Positions 14,144 to 36,702 of a stretch of 59,807 nucleotides of DNA are shown piece after piece. Every line of letters begins with the position of its first letter. Within the stretch, counting starts at the first letter, position 1. The DNA comes from Planctomycetaceae bacterium. GTDB taxonomy: Bacteria > Planctomycetota > Planctomycetia > Pirellulales > Pirellulaceae. Where the stretch lies: positions 1 to 59,807 of the forward strand of contig RECD01000180.1 in NCBI GenBank assembly GCA_007694185.1, written 5' to 3'. The translations under genes were made by a program, and so were the position numbers. A model generated the notes under the pieces. That model was not told where the DNA came from. It did not search any database and worked only from the letters and a program-made list of their open reading frames with translations.

Positions 14144-16729
14144 ATGAACCGAGTCCATTCATGGACGATCATCGCCTCTCTGATCCTCGGGATCGGTGCT
14201 GTCAACCTATTCGCAGCGGCGGACGAACCGTCGCAACCGGCGGAGGTTGCTCAGCCGCCCGCGTCGGACGGGGAAACGGCGAAACAACCTGCGGCGGAGC
14301 AGACTCCGGTCGTGTCTGAAGAGCAATTGACGCAGTGGCAGTCCGGCGGCTGGGCGATGCTGCAAAAATTCTGTCTCGAATGCCATAACGCCGATTATCA
14401 GGAAGCCGAGATCGACCTGACGCCGTTCGCGGACGTCGCGCACGCGGAGTCCGATCCCGAAATGTGGAACCGGGTCCTGCAAATGATTCGGTTCGGCGCC
14501 ATGCCGCCGGATGACGCCTTGCTGCCGACCGATGCCGAGCGGAGCGAGCTGTCGCGGTCGATCGACCAGGCGATTTACAGCATGACTTGCGACCTGCGTC
14601 CCAAGTCGGGCCGGGTGACCGCGCGGCGTCTGAATCGGGTGGAGTACAACCACACGATCCGTGACCTGTTTGGCGTCGAGCTGGATTTGACGGGCGATTT
14701 CCCATCGGACGAAGTCGGTGGCGGTTTCGATAACAACGCCGACGTCTTGGCGATGCCGCCGATGCTGTTCGAAAAATACCTCGACGCGGCCGAAATGGTC
14801 GCCTCGTCCGTCTTGCTCGACCCCGAGTCGCTGAAGAAAGAGACGATCGAGATGGTTGGCGAGCGGCTCGCGATCGTCGGCGAAGGGTTCACCGAATCGT
14901 TTTACGGCCGCATTTTCCCGCACGAATCGTTCGCCTGGGTCGAATTCGAGATCGAGACGCCCGGGGTTTATCGGGTGCGGGTGAACGGCAGCGGGGCTAC
15001 CGACAAGCAGCAGGAACAGCCGATTGCGGTTTATGACGGTAGCGGCAAGCCGTTACTTGCCGAAACGTTCAAGTTCGGTGACGGCGGCGGGAACCATTCG
15101 GCGACTGTCGATCACGAGTTCGCTGCCGGCACGTTTCGCTTGCTCGTCGCGACCCTGCCGGAGACGCCGGCAGACTTGAGCGAACTGGCGGCCTTCGATC
15201 GGATCGATCGGCTGGACGAGGAGGCGCTCGCGGCCGGTCGGGACCAGTTTGAAAAATCATTGACGATCGATCGTGAGATCCCCCGCGAAGAATTGGCGTT
15301 CCTGCTCCGCAAAGTGATCGTCGAAGGGCCGCGAGATTTCCCGCAGGAAATGTTGCCGCCGAGCCAATCGGTGATCGTTCAGCGGGTCGCGACCAAGCGG
15401 GGTAACGATTACGTCGAAGTCGAACGGGCCGCGAAACTCTGTTTGGAACCGTTGATCCGCCGCGTCTTCCGCGGGCCGGTCGATGAGGAAACACTCGGTC
15501 GCTACGTCGGTCTGGTGAAGGCAGCGACCGATCGCGGGGCTTCGTACCACCGCGGTTTGCAAGATGCCATCACCGGGATGCTCGTTTCACCCCGGTTTCT
15601 GTTCCGCGTCGAATTGCCCGCCCCGGGTGTCGAGCCGGACGAAGGGGGCGAGTTCCGTTTGACCGATCATCAACTCGCTTCGCGGTTGTCCTATTTTCTT
15701 TGGAGCAGCATGCCGGATGAGGAACTGCTCGGGTTGGCCGACGAAGGAAAGCTGTTCGAACCGGAGGTTTTGGCGAATCAGGTCGACCGGATGCTCCAGG
15801 ATCCGAAAGCCGCATCGCTCGGCAGCCAGTTCGCGGCCCAGTGGTTGGGATTGCGAAACCTCGACTCGATGACGCGTGACGAAAGTAAGTTCCCCGAGTT
15901 CAGCCCCGAACTGGTCGCCTCGATGACCGGCGAGACCCAGCGACTGTTCCTCGATGTGCTGCGAAATAATCATCCGGCCGGCGAATTGCTGAATGCCGAC
16001 TACACCTATCTCGATGCGGCCTTGGCCGATTTTTACGGCATCACTTTGCCGTCGGCCGCCGACGCTTCCGATGCGAACGTGGTCGACACGGATGACAACG
16101 GGTTCGTTCGCGTGTCGCTCGAAGGTTCACCGCGGCGGGGAATTCTGACCCACGCCAGCGTCTTGACATTGACCAGTTTCCCGACGCGAACCAGCCCCGT
16201 GCTGCGTGGCAAGTGGATTTTGGAAAGCATTTTGGGGACGCCGGCCCCCGAACCGCCGCCCAACGTGCCGGAACTCGAGGATGCCGGCGAAGACACGTCT
16301 TCGCTGCCGATGCGTCAGCAACTCGTGATCCATCGCGAAAACCCGTCCTGTTCGTCCTGCCATCGGGTCATGGACGAGCTCGGCTTCGGGTTTGAGGATT
16401 ACGACGCGATCGGCCGATACCGTGGCGACAGTGACATCGACGCATCGGGCGAACTGCCGGGTGGGCGGGCGTTCACAGGCGGTCGCGAGTTGGCTGAGAT
16501 CTTGAGGAAAACCGAGAACGCTCGGTTCGCGACGACCGTCGCGGAAAAATTGCTCGCCTTCGGCATCGGACGGGAATTGAACCCGAATGATCGCTGTGTA
16601 ATCGAGCAGATCATCGGATTGAGTGAATCCGATGACCACCGATTGGCCGATCTGGTAAAACAGGTCGTTGTCAGTCGGCCGTTCCAGTACTTTGAAGCTG
16701 AATCAGGAGTCTACCATGAGTCAGAATGA
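14144..16729 (+). CDS. exported PSD3/PSD5/PSD4/PSCyt3/PSD2 multi-domain cytochrome-like protein
   Basis: An 861-residue planctomycete protein with a signal peptide (1-25). A heme-type CLECH (about residues 75-79) opens the PSCyt1-like part; DUF1587 (LNRVEYNHTIRDLFGVELDL) follows, then a beta-rich CBM-like insert (about 245-330), DUF1595, DUF1592 (LASRLSYFLWSSMPDEELL), DUF1588 with a second heme motif (CSSCH) and C-terminal DUF1585. CxxCH motifs predict c-type heme attachment outside the cytoplasm. The family is of unknown function; carbohydrate-associated electron transfer has been proposed only indirectly. It overlaps the following Tat-exported DUF1552 gene by 14 bp, a recurring partner in planctomycetes. 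Start at ATG 14144. Confidence 0.92.
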   Translation: MNRVHSWTIIASLILGIGAVNLFAAADEPSQPAEVAQPPASDGETAKQPAAEQTPVVSEEQLTQWQSGGWAMLQKFCLECHNADYQEAEIDLTPFADVAHAESDPEMWNRVLQMIRFGAMPPDDALLPTDAERSELSRSIDQAIYSMTCDLRPKSGRVTARRLNRVEYNHTIRDLFGVELDLTGDFPSDEVGGGFDNNADVLAMPPMLFEKYLDAAEMVASSVLLDPESLKKETIEMVGERLAIVGEGFTESFYGRIFPHESFAWVEFEIETPGVYRVRVNGSGATDKQQEQPIAVYDGSGKPLLAETFKFGDGGGNHSATVDHEFAAGTFRLLVATLPETPADLSELAAFDRIDRLDEEALAAGRDQFEKSLTIDREIPREELAFLLRKVIVEGPRDFPQEMLPPSQSVIVQRVATKRGNDYVEVERAAKLCLEPLIRRVFRGPVDEETLGRYVGLVKAATDRGASYHRGLQDAITGMLVSPRFLFRVELPAPGVEPDEGGEFRLTDHQLASRLSYFLWSSMPDEELLGLADEGKLFEPEVLANQVDRMLQDPKAASLGSQFAAQWLGLRNLDSMTRDESKFPEFSPELVASMTGETQRLFLDVLRNNHPAGELLNADYTYLDAALADFYGITLPSAADASDANVVDTDDNGFVRVSLEGSPRRGILTHASVLTLTSFPTRTSPVLRGKWILESILGTPAPEPPPNVPELEDAGEDTSSLPMRQQLVIHRENPSCSSCHRVMDELGFGFEDYDAIGRYRGDSDIDASGELPGGRAFTGGRELAEILRKTENARFATTVAEKLLAFGIGRELNPNDRCVIEQIIGLSESDDHRLADLVKQVVVSRPFQYFEAESGVYHESE

Positions 16730-18095
16730 CCACACACCGAGCAACTTGAGCGGAACGATCCGCGGCGCAGCCCTCAGCCGGCGGTCACTACTCCGTGGTG
16801 CCGGGGTCGTGATGGGCCTCCCCAGCTTGGAAGCGATGTCACCCTTCGCCCGGAGTGCCTTCGCCGCCCCGACGCCGGCCGATAAACGCCCCGTCCGGAT
16901 GGCTTGCTTGTTCTTTCCCAACGGCGTGATCCAGCCGAAGTGGGAGTGCAAAGGCGAGGGGGACGAGTGGGAATTGTCCGAAACGCTCAGCCCGCTGGCG
17001 TCGATGAAGGCGAAGATCAACGTGATCGACGGCCTGACGCACGACAACGGCCGGGCTCACAAAGACGGTGCCGGCGACCACGCCCGGGCCGGGGCAAGCT
17101 TTTTGACTTCGGCACGGCCTTTGAAGACTTCCAGCCGTGTTCACCTCGGCGTCTCGGTCGATCAGATCTGCGCACAACAGCTTTCCGGACAAACGCGTCT
17201 GCCATCGATCGAACTCGGTTTGGTCGGCAGCCGCAACGCCGGCAGTTGTGACTCGGGCTACTCCTGTGCCTACTCGTCCAACATCTCGTGGCGGAACGAG
17301 ACGACGCCGATGGCGAAGGAGACGATCCCGCGACTCGCTTTCGAGCGGCTGTTCGGGTCCGGCGACACCCACGAGCGTCGCGAGCGAAACGAAGTTCGGC
17401 GGAGCATCCTCGATGTCGTCTCCCAAGACGCGAAGAAGCTGATCAAGCAGGTCGGTGACACCGACCGCCGGAAGCTCGATGAGTACTTCTCGGGCGTCCG
17501 CGAGCTGGAAATCCGAATCGAACAGGCCGAACGGGCAGACCGTGAAGCCCTGCCCGATCTGGAAGTTCCCTACGGCCGGGTCGAAGCCTTCCGCGAGCAT
17601 GCACGGTTGATGTTTGACCTGATGGTGGTCGCTTTCCAAACCGATGCCACCCGCGTCGCCACCTTCATGCTCGACAACGCCGGTGGGAACCGCAGTTACA
17701 CCGAAGTCGGCGTCAAGGAATCGCACCACGGGATCAGCCACCACCGGAACGATCCGGAATTGGTCGGCAAGCTCGAGAAGATCGATCACTACTTGGTCGA
17801 ACAGTACGCTTACTTCCTTGAAAAGCTCGACGCGGTCGCGGATGGCGACGGCACGCTGCTGGACAACTCGATGATCCTCTACGGCAGCGGATTGGGCGAC
17901 GGCAACCGACACACGCACCACGACCTGCCGATCGTGTTGGCGGGTGGTGCCGGCGGACAAATCCGCACCGGCCGTCGGTTGAAGTATGAAACCGACACGC
18001 CGATGGGCAACCTCTTCCTCTCGATGCTCGAGATGATGGGGACGCCTGCCGAACGGGTCGGTGACAGCAGCGGTCGCTTGACCGGATTGAGCTGA
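16716..18095 (+). CDS. Tat-exported DUF1552 protein
   Basis: A 459-residue DUF1552 protein. The N-terminus has a twin-arginine signal (LSRRSLLRGAGVVMGLPSLE), so it should be exported folded. The rest is soluble and includes DUF1552 features: ACLFFPNGVIQPKWE, SFLTSARPLKT, LYGSGLGDGNRHTHHDLPIV, and conserved His pairs that could bind metal, related in layout to DUF1501/alkaline-phosphatase-like proteins. ATG 16716 has an AGGAG seven bases upstream and overlaps the previous gene by 14 bp, so expression is coupled. Function is unknown; pairing with a PSD cytochrome is typical of this phylum and recurs at 31.7-36.7 kb in this window. Confidence 0.92.
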   Translation: MSQNDHTPSNLSGTIRGAALSRRSLLRGAGVVMGLPSLEAMSPFARSAFAAPTPADKRPVRMACLFFPNGVIQPKWECKGEGDEWELSETLSPLASMKAKINVIDGLTHDNGRAHKDGAGDHARAGASFLTSARPLKTSSRVHLGVSVDQICAQQLSGQTRLPSIELGLVGSRNAGSCDSGYSCAYSSNISWRNETTPMAKETIPRLAFERLFGSGDTHERRERNEVRRSILDVVSQDAKKLIKQVGDTDRRKLDEYFSGVRELEIRIEQAERADREALPDLEVPYGRVEAFREHARLMFDLMVVAFQTDATRVATFMLDNAGGNRSYTEVGVKESHHGISHHRNDPELVGKLEKIDHYLVEQYAYFLEKLDAVADGDGTLLDNSMILYGSGLGDGNRHTHHDLPIVLAGGAGGQIRTGRRLKYETDTPMGNLFLSMLEMMGTPAERVGDSSGRLTGLS

Positions 18096-18104
18096 TCTCA
18101 GTCG

Positions 18105-19457
18105 ATGCTACCCGGTTTGAAGGTCGGCGATGAAGCCGATCTCGTCTGGAGGGTCGGTGCCGAGCACGCGATCCACTTGGGTTACCCTCCGCCGTCGCTA
18201 ACCCCGACGGCGGTTTGGGCACCGAGCAACACGTCCGTTTCGGCCGTTGTCTTTTCGACCCCCAGCATGATCCTGCTGATGGAGCGGGCGGCCCGCAAGG
18301 CGATCGAACCCTACTTGGAAGCGGGCGAAGCTTCCGTCGGGGCGAACGTACGGATCGAACATTTGGCCCCCACGCCGCTGGGGGCTGAAGTCTGCGCCGT
18401 GGCGAGAGTGACCGCGATCGACGGTCGCACGATCGACTTCGAAGTCACCGCCCATGACCGGCACGAAGCGATCGGCCGCGGCACCCATCGGCGGGCCGTC
18501 GTCAAACTGGAAAAGGTCGCTCGCCGGATCGACGAAAAGACTAAGCTCGGCTTGGGCCCCGTCGGCCCTCTGCCGGGCCAGCCCGGCATCGTATCTCTCG
18601 CCCACGAGCAATCCGTGCATCATTCGTCCGTCGGCGGCGTCTCCGGCCCCGCTGCCGAAACCGCAGGGCCGCTGCCGCTGCCGAACACCACGACGATCCG
18701 GGTCGAGGTCGACGGCGCGATCGCGACGGTGCGTCTCGATCGGCCCCAAAAGAAGAACGCCGTCAACGTGCGGATGACAGAGGATTGGGAAGCGATCAAC
18801 CGTTACCTCGCCGGCCACCCCGAAATCCGCGTCGTCATCGTCAGCGGCGGGGGTGACGATTTCTGTGCCGGTGACGACGTCCCCGAAGTCGGCACGCTGT
18901 CGATGGTCGAAGCGCAGGAACTCAGTTATCGCCAAGCACGGCTGTATCTCTCTTGGGAGCAATTGCCGCAGATTTTCATCGCGGCGATCGCCGGCGCGGC
19001 GTTGGGCGGCGGTTGCGTCGCGGCCTGCGCTTGCGATTTTCGGATCGCCAGCCATGACGCACGATTCGGCATGCCCGAGGTGCTGCTCGGTTGGCCACCC
19101 GGCTACGGCATCGCCCAGTTGACCGCGTTGGTCGGCAAGTCCCGCGCGATGGAACTCTGCGTCACCGGGCAACCGATCCCGGCGCGGCAGGCCGCCGAGT
19201 GGGGGTTGGTCCATCGACTGGTCCCGACCCGAGAGTTGCTGCCGGCTGCCCGTAAATGGGCCGAATCGCTGCTGGCGTTGCCCGCCACGGCGCTCACGGA
19301 AACCAAGCGGCTGGTTCACGCCGACGAGGGGCTACAGCCCAAAGTCGCGTTCTTTGCCGACACGGCCGCCTATGTCCGCTGCCTCGAATTGCCCGACGCC
19401 CGCGAGGGGATCGAAGGATTCAAGTCCAAACGCTCCGGAAGTCAGCGATCGCGCTGA
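18105..19457 (+). CDS. FlK-type thioesterase fused to enoyl-CoA hydratase/isomerase
   Basis: A 450-residue two-domain protein. Residues 1-150 match the hot-dog fold of fluoroacetyl-CoA thioesterase FlK: GLKVGDEADLVW, MILLMERAARKAIEPYLE (catalytic Glu position) and VRIEHLAPTPLG (catalytic His position). Residues about 195-445 are crotonase-fold: VRLDRPQKKNAV, the oxyanion-hole segments FCAGDDV and AGAALGGGC, and both catalytic Glu positions (FGMPEVLLG and RAMELCVTG). An acyl-CoA hydratase with a built-in thioesterase is implied; the substrate is unknown. It lies nine bases after the DUF1552 gene, so it looks co-transcribed with it. A Pro/Ser-rich insertion interrupts the first domain near residues 29-45. 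Confidence 0.85.
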   Translation: MLPGLKVGDEADLVWRVGAEHAIHLGYPPPSLTPTAVWAPSNTSVSAVVFSTPSMILLMERAARKAIEPYLEAGEASVGANVRIEHLAPTPLGAEVCAVARVTAIDGRTIDFEVTAHDRHEAIGRGTHRRAVVKLEKVARRIDEKTKLGLGPVGPLPGQPGIVSLAHEQSVHHSSVGGVSGPAAETAGPLPLPNTTTIRVEVDGAIATVRLDRPQKKNAVNVRMTEDWEAINRYLAGHPEIRVVIVSGGGDDFCAGDDVPEVGTLSMVEAQELSYRQARLYLSWEQLPQIFIAAIAGAALGGGCVAACACDFRIASHDARFGMPEVLLGWPPGYGIAQLTALVGKSRAMELCVTGQPIPARQAAEWGLVHRLVPTRELLPAARKWAESLLALPATALTETKRLVHADEGLQPKVAFFADTAAYVRCLELPDAREGIEGFKSKRSGSQRSR

Positions 19458-31720: not shown

Positions 31721-33181
31721 GTGCATCACGCGAATGAAATGGTCATGACGGAAAATATCATTCGGATATCCGGCCCAATTGGCGGCCGCAGCCTCGTGGC
31801 CGGTCTACGCGTGCGTTTCGGTTTCATCACGCCGGCCGTTTGTGTCGTTCTGCTCGGTTTAACGATCGGTTCGACTAACCTTCGCGGTGACGAAGCCGGC
31901 GACTCGGCCGCGTCACTCGATCCCGCCAGCGGCCGCTACTTCGAAAACCACGTCGCCCCGTTGCTCGCGCGGCATTGCCTCGATTGCCACGATTCGTCGA
32001 CCACGGACGGCGGGCTTGACCTGTCCCGCAAGGCGACCGCATTTGCCGGTGGCGACAGTGGCCACGTGATCGTTCCCGGTAAAGGCGGGGAGAGCCTGTT
32101 GTGGAAGCAGGTGGAATCGGACGAGATGCCGCAGAACCGCGCCCCGCTCTCGGATGACGAGAAAGCGATTTTGCGGCGCTGGATCGATGCCGGGGCGGCT
32201 TGGTCGGTCGAAAAGATCGACCCCGAGGCCTACCTGCATGGCGGGTCGGCGGCGGCAACTTGGTTGCAGCGGCTGACCGTGACCGAATACATCGAAACGG
32301 TTCGCGGCGCGGTCGGCGTCGATGTCGAAGCGGATGCCCGCCGGATCTTGCCCCGCGACGAACGGGCCGATGGCTTCACCAACACAGCCTACAACCTGGG
32401 GGTCGATCTGGCCCACGTCGAGGCTTACGCCCGACTCGCCAAGTTAATCGTCGGCCGGATGGACGTGAAAGCCTTCGCCGCGAAACATTCCAAATGCGAC
32501 CAGGCGACCCGCGAGTGCATGACCGAGCTGATTTCACGGATGGGTTTGAAGCTGTTGCGTGGCCCGCTCAGCCAGGCGGAGGTCGAGACCTTCTTACGGG
32601 TTTCCGATGCCGTCTCGGAAGCGGGTGGCGACTTTTCCGAGTCGGTCGGTTATGTCCTCCAAGCGATGCTGCAATCACCGCGATTCATCTACCGCGTCGA
32701 ACGTCAACTCGGTGATGGTCAACCGTCGCCCGCCGACGGTTACGAACTCGCGTCGCGGTTGAGCTACATCCTTTGGGGCGGCCCCCCCGACGATCGGCTG
32801 CTAGATGCTGCCAAAGCGGGTGATCTGCAGGACCCTGCCAAGCTCGAATCTCAGGTCGAGCGGATGCTGCGGGACCCGCGCGCGGTCAACCGCTCGCGAC
32901 AATTCATTTACGAATGGATCGACTTGAACCGCTTGGAAACGTTACGGCCCAACCCCGAACGTTTCCCCCAGTGGACGCAGCAGCTCGCGAACGACATGCG
33001 AGATGAGACGCTCGAGTTCTTCGGCGACTTGGTCTGGAAACAAAATCGACCGCTCTGGGAATTGCTCAACGCGCCCTTCACCTACGCGTCACCGCGGTTG
33101 GCTCATCACTACGGTTTGTATGAGAGTTCAAGCGATCCGCGACAACCCGCGCCCGAACAAAGAAACTGCCCCAGCGGGTGA
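31721..33181 (+). CDS. exported PSD-type cytochrome-like protein, N-terminal half (split gene)
   Basis: 486 residues ending in CPSG. After an N-terminal hydrophobic export signal (about 30-50; the GTG 31721 and ATGs 31739 and 31745 are all possible starts) come the heme-type CLDCH motif, a DUF1587-like region (LTVTEYIETVRGAVG), DUF1595 and DUF1592 (ELASRLSYILWGGPPDDRLL). The frame stops shortly after the DUF1592 domain (LAHHYGL). The normally following DUF1588 and DUF1585 domains are in the next open frame, which overlaps by 4 bp (GTGA). The pair is most simply one gene split by a -1 frameshift located between 33124 and 33178. Confidence 0.85.
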   Translation: MHHANEMVMTENIIRISGPIGGRSLVAGLRVRFGFITPAVCVVLLGLTIGSTNLRGDEAGDSAASLDPASGRYFENHVAPLLARHCLDCHDSSTTDGGLDLSRKATAFAGGDSGHVIVPGKGGESLLWKQVESDEMPQNRAPLSDDEKAILRRWIDAGAAWSVEKIDPEAYLHGGSAAATWLQRLTVTEYIETVRGAVGVDVEADARRILPRDERADGFTNTAYNLGVDLAHVEAYARLAKLIVGRMDVKAFAAKHSKCDQATRECMTELISRMGLKLLRGPLSQAEVETFLRVSDAVSEAGGDFSESVGYVLQAMLQSPRFIYRVERQLGDGQPSPADGYELASRLSYILWGGPPDDRLLDAAKAGDLQDPAKLESQVERMLRDPRAVNRSRQFIYEWIDLNRLETLRPNPERFPQWTQQLANDMRDETLEFFGDLVWKQNRPLWELLNAPFTYASPRLAHHYGLYESSSDPRQPAPEQRNCPSG

Positions 33182-35169
33182 GCGAAGGTTTGCAAGTGCT
33201 CTATCGGTTCGAGGAACGAGGTGGCGATCGGGTCGGCGACGTCTCCGGGGCTGCGGAACCGACCGACCTGAAGATCACCGACCCCTCCGGCGCCCGTTGG
33301 CAACCGGGCGGGTTGGCGGTGACGTCCTCCACCATGCTCGCCAGCGGTCAACCACCCGCGCGGCTCATCCGGTCGATCAAACGGTCGGGTGCGATCACGA
33401 TCGAAGCCTGGATCACCCCGGCCGACACGACCCAATCGGGACCGGCCCGGATCATCACGCTGTCCAACGGGATCGGCGCTCGCAACTTCACGCTCGGCCA
33501 AGCCGCCGATCAGTTCGAAGTCCGCTTGCGCACGACCAAGTCGAGCGGCAACGGCGAACCTTCGCTGACCTCGGCCAAGGGGAGCGTCGTCGCCGCGCCG
33601 ATGCACGTCGCCTATACCTGCGATGCCGCCGGCAACGCCGTGATCTATCTCAACGGCCAAGCCTCATCGAAACAAAAGGTCGCGGGTGATTTCTCGAACT
33701 GGGATGACAAGTTTCATCTGGCGATCGGCAACGAGTTGTCCGGCGATCGGCAGTGGACCGGCACCCTCCATTTAGCCGCCGTTTACGACCGGGCGTTGTC
33801 GGTCGACGACGTCCGTCGCAATCATGCCGCCGGCGGCGCGGTGAACGACGACAAACTCGCCTCAATGGCCGTCGCGGCCGCTTGGCGAAATTCCGATCGT
33901 CGTGATCTGGTCGCCCTCTACCGGTTCGACGAAGGCTCCGGCGACACGATCCGCGATTCGTCCGAGTCCGGTGAACCGCTCGACCTGAAGATCGACAAAC
34001 CGAACGTGACGAATTGGGTGAATGGCGGATTGACCGTCTATGGCTCGGCCTCGATCGCGACGCCCAAGCCCGCCAAACGGCTCACCGACGCGATCAAGAA
34101 ATCGCAAGCGTTGACCGTCGAAGCTTGGGTGACACCGGCCAACACGACCCAGGACGGCCCGGCACGGATCGTGACGCTTTCCAACGGTTCGAGCAATCGG
34201 AACTTCACGCTCGGTCAGGACAAGGATCGTTACGAAGCCCGATTGCGAGCAGCCCGGACCGACAACAACGGCCTCCCCAGCCAGGCTAGCCCCAGCGGCT
34301 CGGCTCAAACCGGTTTGACGCATCTGGCCTACACGAAGGAACCGGACGGGCAAACGCGGTTGTACGTCAACGGGGAAGAGCAGGCGTCCGCGAATGTCGG
34401 CGACAACCTGGCGAAGTGGGACGGGAATTACCGCTTGCTGATCGCCAACGAAACCAGCGGTGATCGCCCCTGGGTAGGAACTTACCACCTGGTCGCGATC
34501 TACAATCGGTCGCTGACGCCCGATGAAATCAAAGCGAAGGGAGCGGGCATGTCCCGCTACGAACTGGCCGACCACCCGGCGCGCGGCGGACTGTTGACCC
34601 ACGGCAGCGTCCTGACGATCGGCGGTGACGAAGCCTCGATGGTCAGCCGCGGCTTGTTCGTGCTCCACGACCTGCTCTACAGCCGTGTCGGCCACCCGCC
34701 GCCCTGCGTCGACACGACCCCGGTCCCGACGAAGCAGGGCCTTTCGATGCGTGGCTTGGCCGAAGTCCGGCTGGCCGATTCGTCTTGCGTCGGCTGCCAC
34801 GCGCGGTTCGAACCGCTGGCGTTCGGTTTGGAAAAGTTCGATGGGATCGGCGCCTATCACGAAATCGACGAACACGGCAACGAATTGCGGGAGGACGGCG
34901 AGATCCTCTTCCCCGGAAAACGCGAAGCGGTCAAATACGAGACTTCGGAGGAACTGATGGACCTGTTGGCGGCCAGCGACCGCGTGCGGATGGCGATCAC
35001 CCGCAAGTTGACCCAGTTCGCCCTGGGACGCCCGCTGGTCGCCGCCGACATGCCGCACCTCGAACGGATTCATTCGACGGCCCAAGAACGGGGCGGGACC
35101 TATCCCGCCGTGATGACCGCGATCGTAACGAGTGACCTGGTGCGGATGACCCGCACCGAAAATCGATAA
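33178..35169 (+). CDS. two LamG domains plus PSCyt3/PSD2, C-terminal half of split gene
   Basis: About 663 residues. Two LamG/concanavalin-like domains of about 215 residues (LYRFEERGGDRVGDVSG and LYRFDEGSGDTIRDSSE as their starts) are clearly duplicated. They are followed by DUF1588 (ARGGLLTHGSVLTIGG; heme motif CVGCH) and DUF1585 (RKLTQFALGRPLVAADM). No signal peptide is present although CxxCH and LamG imply export, so it is likely the C-terminal part of the preceding gene, whose frame it overlaps at GTGA. The GTG at 33178 has no ribosome site. LamG domains in this position suggest binding of a polysaccharide or glycoprotein. Confidence 0.85.
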   Translation: MSEGLQVLYRFEERGGDRVGDVSGAAEPTDLKITDPSGARWQPGGLAVTSSTMLASGQPPARLIRSIKRSGAITIEAWITPADTTQSGPARIITLSNGIGARNFTLGQAADQFEVRLRTTKSSGNGEPSLTSAKGSVVAAPMHVAYTCDAAGNAVIYLNGQASSKQKVAGDFSNWDDKFHLAIGNELSGDRQWTGTLHLAAVYDRALSVDDVRRNHAAGGAVNDDKLASMAVAAAWRNSDRRDLVALYRFDEGSGDTIRDSSESGEPLDLKIDKPNVTNWVNGGLTVYGSASIATPKPAKRLTDAIKKSQALTVEAWVTPANTTQDGPARIVTLSNGSSNRNFTLGQDKDRYEARLRAARTDNNGLPSQASPSGSAQTGLTHLAYTKEPDGQTRLYVNGEEQASANVGDNLAKWDGNYRLLIANETSGDRPWVGTYHLVAIYNRSLTPDEIKAKGAGMSRYELADHPARGGLLTHGSVLTIGGDEASMVSRGLFVLHDLLYSRVGHPPPCVDTTPVPTKQGLSMRGLAEVRLADSSCVGCHARFEPLAFGLEKFDGIGAYHEIDEHGNELREDGEILFPGKREAVKYETSEELMDLLAASDRVRMAITRKLTQFALGRPLVAADMPHLERIHSTAQERGGTYPAVMTAIVTSDLVRMTRTENR

Positions 35170-35262
35170 GCCCATGCCTTTGTGAATGTTCCCGTCGTGC
35201 TATCGGGCCGCATGACAACCTTTGGCTGACAAGCCACCCGAATCCATGCCAGGAGAACCGTG

Positions 35263-36702
35263 ATGACCAGAGCCGCCATCAGCCGCCGTACCATGCTCCG
35301 GGGACTCGGAACCGTCTCGATCGGTCTGCCGTTCCTCGAAGAAATGCTCGCCACCCCCGCCGCGGCCCAATCGGCCACCGGTGTCCCGGTACGGGCGTTC
35401 AACGTCTTCTTCGGTTTGGGAATCCCTTCCCCGCTGCAAACAGAAGGTTTTGAGGGGGTGCTCGAACCGCTCAAGCCGTTGTCAGACAAGTTGCTGATCA
35501 TGCGGAACGTCGACCACGTCCGCGCGGATGAGCCGGGGATCAACGCTCACTACGACGGTTCCTCCGCCGCCTTCACCGCGGCCCCGCCCAACGGCACGGC
35601 ACGCGCCGGCGGCCCATCGCTCGATCAAGTGATCCGCCATCACCACTACCCCGACGGCTTGCCCCAAGGGATGGTCCCCGCCTTGGTCGCCGGTACCTAT
35701 TTCCGTCGCAACGACCGGCCGGTGCGTTACGTCCACAGTTTCAACCCGGACGGGACCGCCGCCGGAGCGATGCAGGAAAGCCCCCAGGCACTCTTTTCGC
35801 GGATCTTCGGGTCGACTGACGACACGGAACAGGCCGCCGACCCACGCCGTCAGAAACTCGATCGCAGCGTCCTCGATTCCGTCGTCGAACAGACGAAATT
35901 TTTTGCGGGCGATCGTTCACCGCTCGGCGCGACGTCGCGAGCCCGCCTGGCGGACCACCTCGACCGAGTTCGCGAATACGAGCAGCGGGCATTCGAAATG
36001 CAAAAGGTGATCGCCGAGCGATGTCAGTCACCGGGCACCCCGTCCGATTCGAAACTGATCCACGGCGACGAAGCCGATCCGGGTGGCGAAGGGATCGACA
36101 TCACGCTCGAGGAATTGACCGCCGAATGGCGACTGATGGCCGACCTTTACGCGTTGGCCATCCAATGCGACCGGGCCCGCTTCGGATCGCTGACGTTTTT
36201 GGCTGCCGGTGAGCGGATCCGTTTGACGGGGAAATACGAATACGACGGCCGCACGGTTTTCGAGTTCGATGACGCCGCCCATCGCAAGGCGACCGGCGCG
36301 AACGCTTGCAGTCACGAATGGTGGCACGCCTTCCGCGAGGACAAGAAGAACGAGCAGTTGCGGGCGCACGCGCACATGAAGATGCGTGAGGTCGCCTATT
36401 TCCTCCAGCGGCTCGACGGCAAGGACTCGGTCGAAGCCAACGGCAAGACGCTCTTGGAAAACTCGCTGATCACGATCTCGACCGAATCGGGCGACGGGCG
36501 GCACAACGACGTCAAGCGGGAATTGTCTGGGATCTTCCACGCCGTGACGGGCGCCGGAGGCCGGTTTAAGACCGGCCAGATCATGGACGTCGGCGCCGAG
36601 GGGATCGACGTCTACAACACCGCGTTAGCCGCCCTGGACGTAGCCGGAAGGATCGGCCCCAACAACCGTCAAATGCAAATGGTCGACAAGATCCGAACCT
36701 GA
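35263..36702 (+). CDS. Tat-exported DUF1552 protein (second copy)
   Basis: A 479-residue DUF1552 protein with a Tat signal (ISRRTMLRGLGTVSIGLPFLEE). Body features resemble the 16716-18095 protein: LGIPSPLQTEGFEGV, the heavily His-bearing SHEWWHAFREDKKNEQ, and LITISTESGDGRHNDVK. ATG 35263 is preferred to the adjacent in-frame GTG (35260); AGGAG is at 35251-35255. It lies 93 bp after the split PSD/LamG gene and ends with a hairpin terminator. The partner pairing matches the 14.1-18.1 kb operon. Function is unknown. Confidence 0.9.
   Translation: MTRAAISRRTMLRGLGTVSIGLPFLEEMLATPAAAQSATGVPVRAFNVFFGLGIPSPLQTEGFEGVLEPLKPLSDKLLIMRNVDHVRADEPGINAHYDGSSAAFTAAPPNGTARAGGPSLDQVIRHHHYPDGLPQGMVPALVAGTYFRRNDRPVRYVHSFNPDGTAAGAMQESPQALFSRIFGSTDDTEQAADPRRQKLDRSVLDSVVEQTKFFAGDRSPLGATSRARLADHLDRVREYEQRAFEMQKVIAERCQSPGTPSDSKLIHGDEADPGGEGIDITLEELTAEWRLMADLYALAIQCDRARFGSLTFLAAGERIRLTGKYEYDGRTVFEFDDAAHRKATGANACSHEWWHAFREDKKNEQLRAHAHMKMREVAYFLQRLDGKDSVEANGKTLLENSLITISTESGDGRHNDVKRELSGIFHAVTGAGGRFKTGQIMDVGAEGIDVYNTALAALDVAGRIGPNNRQMQMVDKIRT

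Follow-up and report, generated by a model that had tools for sequence, protein, structure and literature searches.

Sequence and model analysis of a FlK-type thioesterase–crotonase fusion from Planctomycetota, a putative bifunctional acyl-CoA enzyme

A gene encoding a FlK-type thioesterase domain followed by a crotonase domain in a single polypeptide was found in a planctomycete contig (RECD01000180.1), the analysed stretch of which, 59,807 nucleotides long, is referred to as the window. As judged from its relatives, the FlK–crotonase fusion is genuine, old and conserved. It is apparently undescribed so far, as no account of it was found in the open literature, which misses most subscription papers. 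It was proposed, with a probability of about 45%, that the protein is a free-standing bifunctional enzyme acting on acyl-CoA, in which an isomerase-type crotonase and a releasing thioesterase are joined by a flexible linker. If this is right, the pairing of a FlK-type thioesterase with a single-Glu crotonase is kept across several planctomycete families and would give a handle on the role of FlK-like domains outside fluoroacetate resistance.

The fusion gene, its domains and its relatives

The gene was located at 18105–19457 of the forward strand as a single open reading frame of 450 amino acids, from the ATG at 18105 to the stop at 19457, and was delimited by its translation, the Pfam matches and the frame shared among relatives. 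The FlK profile (PF22636) matched residues 44–134 (envelope; 18234–18506, forward strand) with an E-value of 3.6e-33 and 114.2 bits against a curated cut-off of 27. When residues 1–152 were searched by sequence, the best PDB chains were those of FlK itself (E 3.9e-22 to 4.6e-21). The ECH_1 profile (PF00378) matched residues 203–444 (18711–19436, forward strand; E 1.6e-46, 159.1 bits, cut-off 27), placing the second domain in the crotonase superfamily with its enoyl-CoA hydratase/isomerase fold.

An AlphaFold2 model was built from a 52-row alignment (mean pLDDT 85.9, pTM 0.67). It contained two well-predicted domains, the halves having no defined mutual contact at this pTM. The crotonase half was matched to solved crotonases with Z-scores of up to 35.2 (3pea_C, rmsd 1.6, 250 aligned residues). 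The FlK half was modeled as strands and a long helix; the structure-search output was filled by crotonases, and the identity of this half was taken from its sequence. Residues 151–195 (18555–18689, forward strand) formed a linker whose centre was predicted to be disordered (pLDDT <50 at 154–157 and 159–187) and whose length differed between relatives of the fusion. According to the prediction, the linker between the halves is a floppy, low-confidence segment.

Relatives were collected by scanning a nine-row alignment (A1) against the contigs of named genomes, and 64 loci among the best 80 of 184 relatives (L051–L114) represented the fusion family. Both parts shared one open frame in 61 of these 64 fetched loci. 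The three exceptions were an in-frame TGA (L091, corresponding to genome G072), an assembly gap of N (L101, genome G004) and a start at the contig end (L110); L111 and L114 were cut at contig ends, yet hold parts of both halves. A sequencing artefact, which the initial annotation had named as an outcome that would refute the fusion, was ruled out by this shared frame among the best 80 of 184 relatives. In L091 (2249–3466), the single TGA stood exactly between otherwise intact halves, and may reflect either a sequencing error or a recent split.

The record labels of the fusion loci were mostly Planctomycetota, with Verrucomicrobiota given for L078, L079 and L084 and Acidobacteriota for L096 and L106; the labels of metagenome-assembled genomes may be wrong. 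The contig titles of L083, L084, L096 and L106 included Akkermansia muciniphila, Kuenenia and Acidobacteriaceae, and the proteins were placed amid planctomycete ones in the tree, so either these labels are wrong or the gene may have moved.

In its own genome, the fusion was one of two crotonases. Matches at E ≤ 1e-45 were obtained in 33 of 241 genomes of the window's family: 26 were near full-length (one, G072, with the in-frame TGA), four were fragments (G004, G124, G143 and G216) and three were crotonases alone (G069, G104 and G183). At E ≤ 1e-60, and with the own genome included, 16 of 396 genomes drawn from the order and 7 of 392 drawn from the phylum matched; three of the latter seven held stand-alone crotonases and one (G886) held separate FlK and crotonase genes.

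In the crotonase tree, 52 fusions and L164 formed one clade (98 SH-aLRT), and two changes of the fusion label were needed because L164, which is cut at a contig end, was counted as stand-alone. The tree of the FlK half, which was unrooted and based on few columns, required two label changes when the very long row L169 was present, and without this row the fusions occupied one side of a branch (95). The pairwise distances of the two halves correlated with r of 0.76 over 1326 pairs, which are related to one another. With the L164 and L169 caveats, each half thus formed one clade, which is consistent with one old fusion.

Active-site positions of the two halves

The residues T42, E50, G69, H76 and R120 of FlK were transferred by offsets checked on the alignment with PDB FlK chains. 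T52 (18258–18260), E60 (18282–18284) and H86 (18360–18362), all on the forward strand and aligned with T42, E50 and H76, respectively, were invariant in the 52 aligned fusions, as were G79, H128 and R130. The Thr/Glu/His active site of a FlK-type thioesterase domain was therefore present throughout, and the earlier statement that the Glu and His positions are kept was confirmed by E60 and H86 and extended by T52, which it had not mentioned. Among 20 stand-alone FlK-like proteins, the same positions were occupied by Thr in 19, Glu in 20 and His in 20. Being near-universal, these residues mark the family and not a special substrate. The position aligned with Phe36, presumably the lid residue of FlK, was R, G, S, A, Q or E and never Phe in the 52 fusions (S46 in the window protein), the offset being taken from the PDB FlK alignment within a loop of variable length. 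The Phe lid of a fluoroacetyl-CoA-specific FlK proper was thus absent, and fluoroacetyl specificity is not expected.

The crotonase half was compared using the numbering of rat enoyl-CoA hydratase. The position of Glu144, the water-activating residue, was occupied by V305 (19017–19019, forward strand) within the motif LGGGCVAAC, and was Val in 51 and Ile in one of the 52 fusions. The proton-shuttle residue Glu164 was kept as E325 (19077–19079, forward strand) in all 52. When the gene calls of 63 loci and the window were aligned, fragments included, the former position held 63 Val and one Ile and the latter Glu in 64 of 64. The initial annotation had credited the domain with both catalytic Glu residues, of which only E325 was found. 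The pair of Glu residues of an enoyl-CoA hydratase proper (EC 4.2.1.17) was therefore lacking in all aligned fusions, and the pattern of a single-Glu enoyl-CoA isomerase, with the Glu164-type acid only, was present.

Further features set the family apart. D257 (18873–18875, forward strand), located at the oxyanion-loop position where AGAD-type hydratases have Ala, was Asp in 50 of 52 fusions and in none of 31 stand-alone crotonases, L164 having been removed from a set of 32. The combination D257/V305/E325 was also absent from these 31, ten of which had Glu at the Glu144 position. The catalytic Glu was followed by the signature LGWPPGYG (19086–19109, forward strand), in which G329, W330, P331, P332, Y334 and G335 were invariant in 52 of 52 and which was used as the scan pattern LGWPP[GN]YG; the truncated relative L164 had GWLPNYG at this site. 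D258 was likewise invariant in all 52. Neither D257 nor the WPP motif had a counterpart in the compared sequences, a set without a residue-level alignment of a characterised enoyl-CoA isomerase. Near the C-terminus, C426 was conserved in 52 of 52 fusions.

The likeness to isomerases refers to the Glu pattern, the trees having contained no characterised isomerase sequence. By sequence, the crotonase half was nearer to hydratases, with 3-hydroxypropionyl-CoA dehydratase (5zai, E 3.3e-43) as the best match, and the best Foldseek matches of the model were hydratases too. No cut-off of the named enoyl-CoA hydratases of NCBIfam was reached among the best 25 of 73 matches, the best score being 166.1 bits against a cut-off of 400 (EchA19). 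According to the accessible portions of the respective papers, the two Glu residues of MFE1 serve water activation (the first) and proton exchange with C2 (the second) (PMC10988713), PaaG resembles isomerases in having a single catalytic Glu (PMC4498308), and the loss of the Glu144 equivalent abolished all tested activity of DmdD, both hydration and hydrolysis (PMC3660561), and the activity of AcuH (PMC5651017). With Val or Ile in place of Glu144, these data make a plain hydratase unlikely and proton-shuttle chemistry the natural guess. The earlier designation of the protein as a fused hydratase/thioesterase consequently holds for the fusion of a crotonase to a FlK domain and lacks support for the term hydratase, given that the water-activating Glu is Val or Ile throughout the aligned family; annotation of the fusion protein as an enoyl-CoA hydratase is cautioned against.

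Gene neighbourhood, metabolic setting and unfused gene pairs

Two genes preceded the fusion on the forward strand and were assigned to its neighbours outside the unit. One encoded a protein with PSCyt1, PSD3, PSD5, PSD4, PSCyt3 and PSD2 domains (14144–16729; Pfam) and the other a DUF1552 (HXXSHH) protein (16668–18095; PF07586, E 9.6e-100) with an uncertain start codon. The stop of the DUF1552 gene lay 9 bp upstream of the fusion. On this arrangement, the initial annotation had described the fusion as operonic with the PSD/DUF1552 genes, and thereby as belonging with an exported cytochrome (PSD) and a DUF1552 protein. The presence of both genes and their shared direction were confirmed in the window, and within the genus the same order recurred in G003 (L051) only, where the gap between DUF1552 and the fusion was 302 bp. 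No such arrangement was detected in the congeners G001, G002 and G004, the last of which had no more than 2.2 kb upstream of the fusion.

Outside the window, DUF1552 occurred close to the fusion in 2 of the 64 fetched loci (among the best 80 of 184 relatives), upstream on the same strand in L051 and convergent in L112 (genome G035), with flanks of at most 9 kb, many contigs ending earlier and neighbouring open reading frames chosen for the DUF1552 profile by similarity. A co-directional PSD/DUF1552 neighbourhood thus occurred in 1 of these 64 loci, a congener, so the expectation that DUF1552 accompanies the fusion elsewhere did not hold. PSD-like proteins without DUF1552 were present in two further loci, L055 and L111 (of the same 64 among the best 80 of 184). 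DUF1552 was matched 23 times in the own genome, fragments included, and adjacency to one such gene therefore says little. The upstream gene pointed away in 21 of the 62 rows having one, and 26 of 64 rows, contig ends included, had no co-directional neighbour within 150 bp. The accessible part of a study on Verrucomicrobia describes PSCyt3-encoding genes as usually adjoining one family of unknown genes (PMC5615132); by this precedent, the PSD gene seems to form a separate pair with its partner. The operon with DUF1552 was largely refuted by synteny, and an operon partnership of the fusion is regarded as extremely improbable in spite of the 9-base gap and the order shared with G003. Linking the fusion to DUF1552 is thus to be treated with caution.

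A second PSD/DUF1552 cluster was observed in the window at 31811–36702. It consisted of a gene with PSCyt1, PSD3, PSD5 and PSD4 domains (31811–33181), a gene with Laminin_G_3, PSCyt3 and PSD2 domains (33178–35169) that overlapped the former by 4 bp, and a DUF1552 gene (35293–36702).

A conserved neighbour of another kind was sought and rejected. The commonest one, a protein of ~1630 amino acids with DUF7133, PA14, copper-binding, GDSL and cytochrome c domains, occupied position -1 in 10 of 64 rows, which seem to represent one lineage. Other upstream genes encoded Methyltransf_4, NUBPL/Mrp-like, DUF6807, DegT, PEP carboxylase, ThyX, GFO/IDH/MocA, DsbH-like thioredoxin and DprA proteins. As the PSD/DUF1552 genes were not conserved and the inspected immediate neighbours were unrelated, the fusion gene is best read as a free-standing unit. 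A RhaT-type sugar transporter adjoined the fusion in 4 of 64 rows, whose taxonomic labels differed (L069, L071, L096 and L106). Two of these transporter genes preceded the fusion in the same direction; the other two followed it on the opposite strand.

The metabolic setting was assessed by the acyl-CoA dehydrogenase profile PF00441, for which the own genome and the genomes G002 and G003 had no hit at E ≤ 1e-3. A part in canonical beta-oxidation was rejected on these grounds. In the window's family, PF00441 matched at E ≤ 1e-10 in 8 of 30 carriers (26 near full-length, including the one interrupted by the in-frame TGA, and four fragments) and in 158 of 211 other genomes (Fisher p 4e-7), an association which is not phylogenetically independent because 16 of the 30 carriers belong to one genus and 5 to the window's own genus, where the congener G004 has a match. 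In a hand-picked set, PF00441 was present in 6 of 14 carriers, with two weak matches among them, compared to 12 of 13 non-carriers. The 3-hydroxyacyl-CoA dehydrogenase profile PF00725 was detected in 25 of the 27 genomes of this set, including the own genome, in which the open frame was 500 amino acids long. The conclusion drawn was only that the fusion can do without an acyl-CoA dehydrogenase.

FlK and crotonase genes were also found side by side in an unfused state. In another planctomycete family (f2), 4 of 396 genomes matched the crotonase of G037, and in three of the four a FlK gene (PF22636, Pfam) followed the crotonase as a two-gene unit (L041, 9783–11004; L042, 9113–10309; L180, 1342–2666). 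Both catalytic Glu residues were absent from these paired crotonases, as established by alignment for L041 and L042 and by translation for L180. The fourth crotonase (L178) kept the Glu164 equivalent, and no FlK gene was found near it. The surroundings were unrelated in the two pairs inspected. Pairing with FlK consequently does not require isomerase chemistry. The paired crotonases carried a W-x-P-P-W-G motif reminiscent of the GWPPxYG of the fusion.

In genome G886, a paa-type cluster (L169, 7356–13957) had a FlK-type gene directly before a crotonase with both Glu residues, together with a second crotonase, a 3-hydroxyacyl-CoA dehydrogenase, a thiolase and PaaA. With NCBIfam, PaaA scored above its cut-off; the crotonases were best or third best for PaaG/PaaF, below the cut-offs. 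Rescue thioesterases of the PaaI type are located in paa-type operons. The two unfused pairings, both outside the fusion clade, argue for a functional link of the two activities and for a release or rescue role of the FlK half.

Proposed reaction and comparison with known systems

It was proposed that the usual oxyanion hole of the crotonase half would accommodate an acyl-CoA, and that E325, the sole catalytic Glu, would move protons at C2/C4 in an isomerisation of the Delta3-Delta2 type or in related enolate chemistry, without the addition of water. The FlK half, with its intact Thr-Glu-His site, would then hydrolyse the resulting or stalled acyl-CoA to release free CoA, and the floppy linker would tether the halves so that the product passes locally between them. 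We infer that both halves are active, the order of the reactions and the net hydrolysis of the thioester. A wider interpretation, held to be rather doubtful, is that the Asp in the oxyanion loop, the Val in place of Glu144 and the LGWPPxYG signature define a crotonase subfamily with its own chemistry, which together with the tethered FlK domain would form a self-contained sanitiser, by which a CoA thioester that is toxic or a dead end is first converted and then released, many planctomycete carriers being without acyl-CoA dehydrogenase.

Other assignments of the crotonase half were weighed against the isomerase-type one. Another enolate reaction on a specific acyl-CoA, such as C–C bond cleavage or formation, decarboxylation or thioester hydrolysis by the crotonase itself, with the FlK half releasing the product acid, is a possible though unlikely alternative. 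It would agree with the D257/V305/E325 combination, which was seen in none of the 31 stand-alone crotonases compared, and with the hydrolysis, dehalogenation and decarboxylation attributed to crotonases in the accessible text on DmdD (PMC3660561); no positive sign of any particular reaction and no conserved pathway neighbour was found, however. That the domain is a hydratase despite V305, with water activated via E325 or D257, is deemed improbable. The protein would then act as a two-step detoxifier, hydrating a reactive enoyl-CoA (acryloyl- or methacrylyl-CoA) and hydrolysing the hydroxyacyl-CoA by the FlK half. The hydratases among the best sequence and Foldseek matches (5zai, E 3.3e-43) and the precedent of DmdD, in which hydration and thioester hydrolysis occur in one protein (PMC3660561, as far as its accessible text goes), favour such an enzyme, but the Glu144 equivalent, whose loss eliminated the activity of DmdD and AcuH according to the same partial sources, is missing from 52 of 52 fusions. 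It is also quite improbable that the crotonase half has no catalytic role and serves acyl-CoA binding or oligomerisation, presenting the substrate to the thioesterase half or regulating it. The paired f2 crotonases, which lack both Glu, are an example of FlK in the company of a catalytically poor crotonase, but E325, D258, W330, P331, P332 and Y334 are invariant in 52 of 52 fusions, as would be expected of an active site in use.

The isomerase-type bifunctional enzyme may be compared with several known systems. In the accessible part of the hotdog survey by Dillon and Bateman (2004), 'Rosetta' fusions join a hotdog domain to a functionally linked enzyme, the genes of which are adjacent elsewhere; those named there involve LpxC, HAD-like proteins and 3-hydroxyacyl-CoA dehydrogenase, with no crotonase among them (PMC516016). 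The fluoroacetyl-CoA thioesterase FlK (PF22636; PDB 3p3f, 3kv7) belongs to the same domain family as the first half (E 3.9e-22), and the residues aligned with its T42, E50, G69, H76 and R120 are invariant in the fusions. Unlike FlK, the window protein is fused to a crotonase and the Phe36 position is never Phe. The DSF synthases of the RpfF/DfsA type (5fus, 6dgn, 3m6m, 3m6n) have the crotonase fold and matched the model with Z-scores of 30.4–32.5 at 16–21% identity. These synthases are described as combining dehydratase and thioesterase chemistry, and they are not known to have a separate hotdog domain.

The single catalytic Glu on a crotonase fold is shared with PaaG and the Delta3-Delta2-enoyl-CoA isomerases, as far as described in the accessible text on PaaG (PMC4498308). 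Rat 3,2-enoyl-CoA isomerase (1xx4) matched the fusion model with a Z-score of 31.1, a value equalled or exceeded by many crotonases of other function. In contrast to PaaG and the isomerases, the fusion is nearer to hydratases in sequence, has the peculiar D257 and LGWPPxYG and carries a thioesterase. The methylthioacryloyl-CoA hydratase/hydrolase DmdD (4izb, Z 31.0) resembles the fusion in joining a change of the acyl-CoA to thioester hydrolysis within one polypeptide. According to the accessible text, both reactions of DmdD take place in one crotonase domain having both Glu residues (PMC3660561), whereas one Glu is missing from the fusion and the hydrolysis would fall to the FlK domain.
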